Source of the DNA: Apostichopus japonicus
Taxonomy: Eukaryota; Echinodermata; Holothuroidea; Aspidochirotida; Stichopodidae
Assembly: GCF_037975245.1 (NCBI RefSeq)
Contig: NC_092573.1
Span: 25,759,265-25,823,264 of the forward strand
Direction of reading: 5' to 3'
DNA length: 64,000 nucleotides
Position numbers and translations under genes: made by a program. Under the pieces are notes generated by a model. That model made no database searches. It was not told the origin of the DNA and worked only from the letters and a program-made list of their open reading frames with translations. Below are positions 32,301 through 35,300 of the stretch, one piece after another. Each line of letters starts with the position of its first letter. Position 1 is the stretch's first letter.

Positions 32301-35300
32301 AAAGGAATGTCGAATGCCGGTAATCTGACCTAGTTTCGAATGAGGTGTAACAGAAGTGTTAGACACCACCATCGATTCCAGAAAATACACACACAGCTTG
32401 CTACCGCCGGTAATTAGACATTAGTGTATACAGTCAGTACATACAGCTGCGGTCAATACCCACAGCACAGTATACATAGCAGCGATGCACATCTCAGGTC
32501 CAGCTAAAGATAACAAGGTATCACGTTTCATTACTGTCTGCATTTTGTAGCGACAAGAGATAAACTTCGATGTGCAAGCAACGGAAAGTTAACTTTTTGA
32601 AGATGGCGGCACTATGGCAAGCCGTTTTAACATTTACCTCTCTATTCTACTTAAGTAGAATTAATTCCACTTAAGTAGAATACAATTAAGCTTAAGTGAA
32701 ATTAATTGCACTTAAGTAGAATTGCATTTTACTTAAGCTTAATTGTATTCCACTTAAGTGGAATTCATATTAGCTTAAGTTCAAACGGTTTTTGTCTACA
32801 TCGTATTTTACTTAAGTAAAATACAATTCTACTTAAGTAAAATACAATTCTGCTTAAGTAAAATTCAATTCTACTTAAGTAAAATGCAATTCTGCTTAAG
32901 TAAAATTCAATTCTACTTAAGTAAAATGCTATTCTACTTAAGCAAAATGGCTTTTCAATTTCACTTAAGCTAAATTGCATTTTACTTAAGTGAAATAGAA
33001 TTACGCTTAAGTGAAATGTGATTGGTCAATCTATTTCACTTAAGTAAAATGCAATTTAGCTTAAGTAAAATGTGATAAGTCAATCAGTATATGCTACTCA
33101 TTGCGTCACTGTACTTGCCGCGAAGTCCGACTCTGTATACTATTTTAGGTACCTCACCACGTGTTCATCCGCTCAATAGGTTTACCATTGTCAGAAAAGA
33201 GGTAAAAGTACCTACCGTAAAGCTTCCTTAAGCATGTTATCATTTACTGTCATCGTTTTTTCTGCCTTTATATGAAAGAGCATAATTTTAAGTACAGATG
33301 GTGTGAAAATATGGAGGATCGAAGGTGATATAAACCATTTTAAAAATCTTTGGTTAAATGTTGATATTACTCCGAACGAGCATGTGGAAGGGTTCAGTGT
33401 GATAAACTTGCTCCTCTTCTAGCTCATAATCTAAACGGTCATGAGATGGAAGTTTGCAAGTGCCATGATAGGCCACTAGAACACAGCTATCATGTGGTGG
33501 GTATGATATACCAGATGAAAACTTCTATCTATGCTTTGGCAGGTCTTGAAAGTGATGAGTTTAGTGTGTAAGTCAATGGAACAATTAATTGTGATGCGAG
33601 ACCTATAGAGTTACGTTCAAGACGTACTAGTTACGTAACCATTTGCGGCCATTCCCCCATTCTGCGATACTTATCCAGCTTTCGTTGTGTATTACGAACA
33701 TAACACCATACTTAGCAAATGAAGCAAAGCTTTGTTTATCACTGAATCTGAACGTTAGACATTTGGTAAATGCAGCCAGCCAATAAATCGTTGCAAACTG
33801 TTGCTGATGCAGTTGGAAAAGCACTTTTGAGGGCAAGGGAACGACTACAACACGACATACCACCAATCAGTGGTACTAGTAGTAGAAGTATCACAAGGCA
33901 TGGTACCATGCATGTAAACATTGCCCCCAGACCAACCACTTCTCCGCACGAGGTAAATGTTATAACGGCTTGCCATATCCTTCAATTCCACTTAAGCTAA
34001 ATTGTATTTTACTTAAGCAAAATTCAATTTTACTTAAGTAAAATGCAATTGTATTCTACTTAAGTAAAATACAATTCTACTTAAGTAGAATACAATTTAG
34101 CTTAAGTTAAATTCAATTTCACTTAAGCTTAATTGTATTCTACTTAAGTAAAATACAATTTTACTTAAGTAAAATGCATTTAGCTTAAGTGAAAAAGAAT
34201 GACACTTTTACTTAAGCTAAATTAAATTTTACTTAAGTAGAATTGTATTTTACTTAAGTAGAATACAATTAAGCTTAAGTGAAATTGAATTTAACTTAAG
34301 CTTAAAAGAAAGTGGTAATTTTACTTAAGTGGAATACAATTAAACTTAAGTAAAATGCAATTCTACTTAAGTGCAATTCATTTTACTTAAGCTTAATTGT
34401 ATTCTACTTAAGTGCAATTCATTTCACTTAAGCTTAATTGTATTCTACTTAAGTGGAATTAATTCTACTTAAGTAGAATAGAGAGGTAAATGTTAAAACG
34501 GCTTGCCATACGGCACGCTGTTTGTGGCGAGTCTTCAATGCCTTTCAGCATCAAGTCATATGGTATCCCCTCAAACGCTTTCTTGGCTGCTCGATGGAAA
34601 GATACGACTGCCTTCCATTGGACTAATGTATTGTTGTTGTTTTTTTTTAAATCGGATGGTCCATTAATCAGTGATAAAGATATGCTGCAAGAGCAGTTAA
34701 TTCTCAGAAAGCAGGATCATTTTATCCAAGGACCGATGTCATTAATATGTCTTTGTTGTGTCACTCGTGTACAGGTCCAAGTAAACCGCTTTACGTATCC
34801 AACCAGATGGTGATCCCACTCGACACGAACGCTGAAGACTGTGTGGGAGCAAGGAGGCCTGATGAAGATATTAGCAAGTTCTTCTCCGACTTCACGACTG
34901 TGAGCTTCGCAGTGTTTTGCAGTGAAACCAACATCCCGTACTGTGAGGCAAGCCTACGCGGTACTGACGTGACCCAGAATTGCTCTACATTTGTGGGATC
35001 AGTGAGACGAAGGAGGCAGACCAACTCAGAGGTGGAGATAGCCATTACCCTGGAGATCAGAACCAATCTGACAAAGGAAGATTTTCAAAGTTTTCTTGAG
35101 TCCATGCGGATGCAGATTCTGAATAGCGGTGCGAGACGAGTACCAGTGTCCGGTTCGTACACGGCTCAGCTAACAGATGATAACATAGCTGGCATTGTCG
35201 TCGGGCAGAAGTTCACCTTTGCTTGTAACCAAGGATACAGCAAGTTTCATGAAGATGTTTGTGGTGAGTACTTTGATCAAGGTAGCTCACTTCAATTATT

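Follow-up and report, generated by a model that had tools for sequence, protein, structure and literature searches.

An insertion with inverted ends and a clean empty site

The window (the whole 64-kb stretch analyzed here, C13:25759265-25823264) contains an element of 1,898 bp (32613-34510, as read from the window sequence) that interrupts a host repeat, is bounded by inverted arms, and carries an array of palindromes next to each end (Table 1). It is genuine: a jumping gene of the known IS3EU type that lacks a transposase and was active recently. The arms (32613-32737 and 34386-34510) are 125 nt long and 94% complementary, and their outer 110 bp differ at one position, in agreement with the inverted ends of about 105 bp with one mismatch described in an earlier note on this DNA. 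The 6-bp duplication CGGCAC and the empty site in two sister copies of the host repeat, both reported in that note, were likewise confirmed. One sister (19688-20050) has a single CGGCAC site and the other (24830-25190) a single CCGCAC site; both lack the element and, with the element left out of the alignment, match the host repeat over 365 bp at 92% and 89% identity, respectively. Because the host repeat aligns through one site in two element-free sisters, we regard the element as an insertion whose empty site is clean.

No open reading frame inside the element exceeds 86 aa, and an Rfam scan of the window returned 0 matches. Two window open reading frames searched against Pfam, and one against PDB, gave no matches; the frame at 38735 retrieved 2 database proteins, neither of them named. 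A CACTA reading of the left flank was rejected because the right end does not mirror that flank.

Table 1. Features of the element and its insertion site (window coordinates)
Feature	Position	Strand	Remarks
Host repeat, left part (insertion site)	32280..32612	+	Resumes at 34511-34548; element-free sister copies 92% and 89% identical
Target-site duplication CGGCAC, left copy	32607..32612		Exactly 6 bp
Left 28-bp tip TATGGCAAGCCGTTTTAACATTTACCTC	32613..32640	+	Exact inverted match at 34483-34510
Left array, 19 units of ATT NNN CTTAAG NNN AAT	32644..33071		Mostly 20/21-bp spacing
Interior	33072..33949		Open frames reach at most 80 aa between stops; diverges fastest among the large position classes
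Isolated CTTAAG outside the arrays	33227..33232		Varies between copies; serves as internal control (6 positions only)
Third, internal tip	33950..33977	-	27/28 identical; array absent on inner side; diverges like interior
Right array, 23 units of ATT NNN CTTAAG NNN AAT	33985..34479		Right end resembles C16 transposase-bearing element
Right 28-bp tip	34483..34510	-	Exact inverted match to left tip
Target-site duplication CGGCAC, right copy	34511..34516		Exactly 6 bp

Two arrays of an 18-bp palindromic unit

The claim of 42 CTTAAG palindromes in two blocks proved accurate, with 19 in 32650-33065 and 23 in 33991-34473; one further CTTAAG stands alone at 33227, and 10 occur elsewhere in the 64-kb window. 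Steps within the arrays measure 21 bp in 28 of 40 cases, 20 bp in 6, and 26 to 37 bp in the other 6. The conserved unit is 18 bp, ATT NNN CTTAAG NNN AAT, and so wider than the 6-bp core: across the 42 units, positions -9 to -7 read A in 40, T in 41, and T in 42, and positions +7 to +9 read A in 42, A in 42, and T in 39, while the triplets between the core and ATT/AAT are variable. The earlier note had overlooked this wider unit, as well as the third, internal tip and the match of the ends to a known superfamily.

That note had also stated that the core never varies. Core invariance drawn from CTTAAG counts is partly circular, since exact CTTAAG was what was counted. We therefore consider frames of the form ATT-3-[6]-3-AAT, a check that is not circular: CTTAAG occupies the center of all 38 such frames in the element. 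The statement thus holds within the element; between copies, it does not, as the core does change there, more slowly than its surroundings (see below) but without being frozen.

A young, high-copy family with 6-bp duplications

The 671.6-Mb genome was searched for relatives. The left 121 bp of the element gave at least 359 matches, a lower bound and a top slice because 40 of 653 candidates were scored; 41 among the matches listed span the full 121 bp at 98 to 100% identity. Exact matches to a 26-bp tip pattern number 361 in the genome (0 for a reversed control), and a 14-bp tip with at most 1 mismatch occurs 1,341 times (81 for the control).

Scanning of 41 places (in the window and 36 further regions) yielded 32 pairs of terminal tips, 28 of which are flanked by perfect 6-bp duplications. 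Among the other four, L009 has one mismatch, L024 has a 5-bp duplication (GTGAC), and L025 and L039 have none; L009 was counted once (3367-5265), and its outer pair (3367-7345) likewise shows one mismatch. Only one terminal tip lies in the stretch examined at L014, L027, L028, L042, and L044. The duplication-bearing set includes a case, L016, of one copy nested inside another. Duplications are G+C-rich (0.74 versus a window value of 0.36); position 2 is G in 26/30 and position 5 is C in 24/30 (n = 30, 28 from the window subfamily and 2 from subfamily B, described below).

The median complete copy lies 1.0% from the majority sequence (30 copies; range, 0.4 to 5.1%). Complete copies contain 34 to 43 CTTAAG (17 copies counted; 3 were dropped from the comparison of 17 copies), and whole palindrome units are missing in several. 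One copy of 733 bp retains both tips and 29 CTTAAG but has lost the interior; it carries the duplication CGTGCG, which indicates that the interior is dispensable. The element thus belongs to a young, high-copy, non-autonomous mobile family, as the earlier note had suspected: there are many full copies (30 complete), and 28/32 tip pairs have perfect 6-bp duplications.

Two further copies define a second subfamily, B. In L051, a tip pair 1,634 bp apart is flanked by the duplication AGCCCT and encloses 41 CTTAAG; in L050, which has an additional insert, the tips are 2,673 bp apart, with the duplication GGGGCG and 40 CTTAAG. Their tips are the same as those of the window family, the arrays are only 71 to 74% alike, and the interior gave no match to the window. 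The free triplet is CCA or TCA in most subfamily B units. ATT-3-[6]-3-AAT frames contain CTTAAG in 33/33 cases in L051 and in 31/32 in L050 (GGGGGG in the remaining one).

Long relatives carry an integrase-type transposase gene

The subfamily B interior includes a 96-codon frame with at least 148 genome matches (the best 150 of 174 candidates were scored). One of these matches (37% identical; residues 9 to 75; E = 2 × 10−6) pointed to a transposase-bearing relative; the exon peptide itself had no candidate in the protein database. The relative, on C16 (L066/L067), has an exact tip followed by 23 CTTAAG, whose steps are those of the window family's right array save for one step of 21 instead of 20 bp. 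After the array come a 183-aa frame (no Pfam match over the cutoff), a helix-turn-helix (HTH)-like exon, and an rva_4 integrase core (PF24764; E = 8.5 × 10−57). The HTH-like exon matches HTH_7 weakly (E = 0.00018; 22 bits, below the cutoff of 23.8) and, in the protein database, one 80-aa protein without a name. In the rva_4 core of the relatives, 34 residues lead from the D of SDHGGEN to the E of RIERLW; the transposases of IS3EU/GingerRoot are of an IS3/IS481-like DDD/E type that lacks an HHCC zinc motif.

Over 535 bp, the C16 end and the right end of the family majority sequence share 97.9% identity, with differences at 0/138 core, 0/28 tip, 1/138 ATT/AAT, 5/138 triplet, and 4/90 spacer positions. 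No far end of the C16 copy turned up in 7.6 kb of sequence inward of its tip, a stretch that includes 1.7 kb of a 161-bp tandem repeat. On C1 lies a second copy, whose core shares 98% identity with the C16 core; it has an exact right tip, 21 CTTAAG in the right-end stretch read, and a right end 92.2% identical to the C16 end over 632 bp. This copy (C1:12260970-12283636), known from its two ends, measures 22,667 bp from tip to tip and has CGGCCG on both sides; the tips were paired from the first 100 tip places listed, all exact, so that one-mismatch tips may lie inside. Its left end has 7 CTTAAG in 211 bases; compared with the left end of the window family, 6 of 191 bases are different. Further tip pairs, 9.1 and 9.5 kb in length, lie at C3:8335952-8345069 and C2:30962565-30972017, respectively. 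A long relative encoding a transposase, which the earlier note had named as support for a mobile family, therefore exists in the form of an rva_4-type gene.

Other candidates were set aside. Autonomous copies were sought among the single-tip places L052 to L061 (10 stretches, 601 bases each), of which 6 are fragments of the window family or subfamily B and 4 had no match. L049, one of the matches to the IS481 and IS3 models, has a 383-aa integrase frame, no tip within 3/14 mismatches, and 2 CTTAAG. The IS481 and IS3 models gave 68 and 75 matches in this genome, none over the cutoff; given their long open frames, most of these matches look like integrases of LTR retrotransposons.

Ends, duplications, and enzyme point to IS3EU/GingerRoot

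The earlier note knew no named element of this design. That the element stands outside any named group did not hold up: the ends, the length of the duplications, and the integrase-type transposase found in long relatives all point to IS3EU/GingerRoot. According to the accessible text of PMC10045372, IS3EU elements end in TA..TA, usually show duplications of 6 bp, and form a group with GingerRoot; fungal IS3EU ends are given as TAYGG..CCRTA in the accessible part of PMC12730594. The window element's ends, TATGGCAAGCC...GGCTTGCCATA (TATGG..CCATA), fit these TA..TA termini, although TATGG..CCATA in the 30 copies is partly a search condition, because copies were found by a tip with at most 3 mismatches in 20. 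Duplications of 6 bp, as in IS3EU/GingerRoot, flank 28/32 pairs, the two subfamily B copies, and the 22.7-kb copy. The family thus resembles IS3EU/GingerRoot in its TA..TA ends, its 6-bp target duplications, and the putative integrase-type transposase of its long relatives; unlike them, it has about 20 palindromic units per end and a 22.7-kb relative. The searched portions of the IS3EU/GingerRoot literature make no mention of such palindrome arrays. Two oyster satellites, CgiSat35 and CgiSat47, are annotated DNA/IS3EU in the available part of PMC8268682, whose searchable text lacks CTTAAG; repeat arrays in the IS3EU superfamily may accordingly not be unique to this case. A Repbase/Dfam entry for the window family may exist.

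Membership of hAT was rejected, since the core is an rva_4 integrase and no hAT family appeared among the Pfam matches of three exons to E = 1. hAT6 elements reportedly have 6-bp duplications, according to the title of a cited study. Polinton/Maverick elements have termini that differ from those of the window element, and their hallmark is a protein-primed DNA polymerase B together with capsid genes. Subterminal or inverted-repeat regions with many protein-binding or tandem motifs are known from En/Spm (CACTA), with its TNPA-binding repeats, from Drosophila Foldback, and from sea urchin TU, which belong to other superfamilies and have other motifs. Polinton/Maverick shares with the present family 6-bp duplications (PMC10045372, accessible text) and an integrase-type enzyme, but the enzyme here matches rva_4 and comes with an HTH-like exon. 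A functional analogy, without membership, is to Hermes (hAT), whose multimeric transposase is recruited, via N-terminal DNA-binding domains, to internal repeats that adjoin a short tip; Hermes differs in superfamily, in target-site length (8 bp), in its BED zinc fingers, and in having far fewer sites (PMC10368747, accessible text). In the literature searched, mostly open access and covered in part, we found no transposon with palindromic CTTAAG or subterminal arrays of this design; the match for palindromic subterminal arrays there was bacterial REP. An IMG/VR scan for three phased palindrome units returned 0 matches, and a scan for the tip pattern returned 4 stretches.

The palindromes change less than their surroundings

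We compared divergence from the majority sequence among classes of positions (Table 2). The main test used 25 of the 30 copies (5 copies at 2% divergence or more were dropped) and excluded the outer 130 bp, which had been used for finding copies, and 4 bases on each side of gaps. Core and ATT/AAT positions differ in 0.37% of cells, triplets and spacers in 0.98%, and the interior in 1.40%, that is, 2.6-fold less than neighboring array bases and 3.8-fold less than the interior. The contrast is seen at A/T positions (Fisher tests, 1.5 × 10−5 and 1.4 × 10−12) and at G/C positions (0.044 and 2 × 10−4), although these tests treat cells or positions as independent while the copies share ancestry. With all 30 copies it is weaker but holds.

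Table 2. Differences from the majority sequence by position class (mismatching cells/cells, or variable positions/positions)
Measure	Core + ATT/AAT	Triplets + spacers	Interior	Isolated CTTAAG
Cells, 25 copies	35/9,431	85/8,654 (triplets 45/4686, spacers 40/3968)	295/21,068	5/140 (6 positions only)
A/T positions only	27/7,841	55/5,922	157/12,530	
G/C positions only	8/1,590	30/2,732	138/8,538	
Variants in ≥2 copies, 25 copies	2/386	14/355	62/864	
Singletons, 25 copies	31/386	47/355	116/864	
Cells, all 30 copies	67/11,283	169/10,375	433/25,020	10/170
Shared variants, all 30 copies	9/386	34/355	84/864	

Variants common to several copies should mostly have passed through transposition. These are the more strongly depleted in core and ATT/AAT, singletons being only 1.7-fold depleted, as selection for mobility predicts. 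The palindromes therefore appear functional, kept intact as though needed for the element's movement. The earlier suggestion that a transposase or host factor reads the palindrome is upheld to this extent, as a constraint on core and ATT/AAT of the kind expected if they were read.

Could the arrays instead be passive, satellite-like repeats that are homogenized by unequal exchange or gene conversion and simply carried along with the tips? The variable unit number (34 to 43 CTTAAG in 17 complete copies), the loss of whole units from several copies, and the common CCA/TCA triplet of subfamily B, which points to homogenization, would all suit such repeats, and the triplets and spacers do diverge somewhat less than the interior, so that some of the lag concerns the whole array. 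Homogenization should, however, add triplet changes, and triplets change no faster than spacers or interior, making gene conversion among units a poor alternative. Nor would it be expected that core and ATT/AAT lag 2.6-fold behind the triplets and spacers around them, that the isolated CTTAAG outside the arrays goes unprotected (5/140), or that core and frame stay the same across subfamilies whose arrays are otherwise 71 to 74% alike. We consider passive repeats improbable.

An action through DNA shape (curvature, or cruciform or hairpin extrusion) rather than sequence-specific binding is less probable still, to the point of being barely credible. The 21-bp spacing does equal about two helical turns, and every unit is a perfect palindrome of 6 to 22 bp. 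However, perfect palindromes reach 18 bp or more in only 7/42 units, the irregular steps of 26 to 37 bp break long-range phase, and conservation falls on specific bases (CTTAAG and ATT/AAT), with the intervening triplets breaking the palindrome. Helically phased A-tract curvature in particular was rejected, as neither a 10.5- nor a 21-bp period in AA/TT steps rises above background; a period of 7 bp is strong.

An internal tip lacking an array serves as an end in none of 30 complete copies

The third tip (Table 1) is present in 30/30 complete copies (at most 3 mismatches in 20) and serves as an end in 0/30, these copies having come from the best 40 of 653 candidates scored. A shorter element ending at this tip was reachable by the same query because its left end would be the same. 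Most copies have one substitution in the internal tip, and across the 30 copies it differs in 17/838 cells compared with 6/1,680 for the terminal tips, which were selected for in the search. A defect not visible in the sequence could silence this tip instead of the absence of an array.

Two places were considered as possible cases of its use. A 1,327-bp pair at C3:1979783-1981109 was rejected as an element ending at the internal tip, since the array runs on beyond its left tip, which makes that tip an ordinary copy's internal one. At L045, the internal tip and the far tip lie 565 bp apart, flanked by CGGTCG and CGGCCG (one mismatch); its left "tip" being the internal one, L045 stands outside the tip-pair count, and it was not taken as an exception because array sequence extends past the internal tip on its outer side, a feature of other old copies too.

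The surroundings of the internal tip suggest how it arose. In both transposase-bearing copies, GAAGGATCGGTCG follows the array and the gene leader comes next; in the older window-family copies L020, L022, L043, and L045, GAAGGATCGGTCG is followed by the internal tip. CGGTCG agrees with the family's insertion preference. In the simplest history, a long relative would have received an insertion of another element in its transposase leader, and later movement would have used the inserted element's far tip together with the relative's array-backed tip, skipping the array-less one. Together, the unused array-less tip and the interior-less 733-bp copy with its duplication provide indirect evidence that arrays, not the tip alone, make an end.

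A proposed role for the arrays

We propose that the element is a non-autonomous IS3EU/GingerRoot-type transposon moved in trans by the rva_4 transposase of its relatives, and that the arrays are cis-acting, multi-site platforms, probably bound by that transposase, which make the ends competent; we put the probability of this reading at roughly two in three. In outline, transposase from a presumably working gene in the long relatives would act in trans on ends that each consist of a 28-bp tip and, next to it, an array of some 20 palindromic units at a usual spacing of 21 bp. The tip (TATGG...) would be the site of cleavage and joining, as family knowledge leads one to expect, and the array would be required in cis for the use of that end. 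By analogy with Hermes, transposase dimers might bind each palindrome, perhaps through the HTH exon, and stack along the array by cooperative loading, thereby gathering the two ends.

The arrays might alternatively be read by a host transcription factor or chromatin protein for transcription, replication timing, or escape from silencing. Constraint shows that the palindrome matters, not which protein reads it, and in both long relatives the right array lies immediately upstream of the putative transposase's first exon, where a promoter or enhancer function is conceivable. Arrays at both ends are nevertheless retained under constraint in copies that have no transposase gene, the interior-less 733-bp copy moved, and a promoter role alone explains neither the retained arrays nor the unused array-less tip. 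A host reader is thus unlikely in our judgment, if less so than passive repeats.

A stronger form of the transposase-bound reading places end identity in the array and not in the tip. The 28-bp tip would then be inert without some 20 palindromes to load a stacked transposase filament, and the window family would have arisen as a chimera when the machinery skipped the array-less tip of an element inserted in a long relative's transposase 5′ leader and used the next array-backed tip. We advance this tentatively, at somewhat less than even odds.

It is rare for the sequence of a transposon alone to show which internal bases are needed for its movement. In this family, the 1,341 tip matches, the unused array-less tip, the interior-less copy, and subfamily B make the role of the ends testable, and a candidate high-copy, recently active family is added for annotation. 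If transposase binds the arrays, they would offer a defined multi-site system for studying end recognition and pairing by integrase-type enzymes of the IS3EU group, and a handle on how a 22-kb DNA transposon is moved.

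Insertion sites and tip pairs across the genome

Across 30 duplications from the window family and subfamily B, the insertion sites are G+C-rich and show a preference for N G N N C N. Compound arrangements were also observed. In one fetched stretch (L016, 2531-6333), a copy is nested inside another and has its own duplication, TGCCCC; in a second (L009, 3367-7345), two copies in inverted orientation together span 3,979 bp from tip to tip as one unit, whose near-duplications are GGGACG/GGGGCG.

Among the matches listed from the tip scan, three tip pairs (3,143 to 3,148 bp each) are probably a third subfamily with the common tip, and two wider pairs are possible additional long relatives. 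Two pairs on contig C2, among the matches listed, measure 565 (L045) and 566 bp. Because the opening bases of L053, which adjoins the 566-bp pair, are nearly those of the L045 flank, these pairs may be a single duplicated locus. The alignment between the two transposase-bearing copies extends into a 161-bp tandem repeat, found downstream of the transposase core in stretches L067 (1-1733; 10.8 units) and L068.

Within the window, a 19-bp tandem repeat (TGATAGGTAACAGTGCCTC; 14587-14778) has ten copies with 100% matches. Two long open frames gave us the impression of exons encoding either a secreted protein or a membrane protein.

Features in the window and on contigs (C) of the source genome
Feature	Location	Basis or result
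Tip pair, 565/566-bp class	C2:14006576-14007140	Tip scan
Tip pair, 565/566-bp class	C2:13086790-13087355	Tip scan
Tip pair, 3,143-3,148-bp class	C1:24138-27283	Tip scan
Tip pair, 3,143-3,148-bp class	C1:19272299-19275446	Tip scan
Tip pair, 3,143-3,148-bp class	C3:14387417-14390559	Tip scan
Tip pair, 9.5 kb apart	C2:30962565-30972017	Tip scan
Tip pair, 9.1 kb apart	C3:8335952-8345069	Tip scan
Clustered frame matches, near contig end	C19:31.0-32.36 Mb	Genome search
Clustered frame matches, near contig end	C20:0.28-1.24 Mb	Genome search
Clustered frame matches, near contig end	C21:0.20-0.79 Mb	Genome search
Clustered frame matches, near contig end	C14:0.15-0.37 Mb	Genome search
Clustered frame matches, near contig end	C11:0.13-0.37 Mb	Genome search
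Long open frame	Window 34678-35376	No Pfam match; no PDB match
Long open frame	Window 38735-39217	No Pfam match; two database proteins match, both unnamed

Distribution of the subfamily B frame

Matches to the subfamily B frame (best 150 of 174 candidates scored) lie near one end of several contigs, mostly spaced 170 to 240 kb apart. This recurrence suggests large duplicated subtelomeric blocks.
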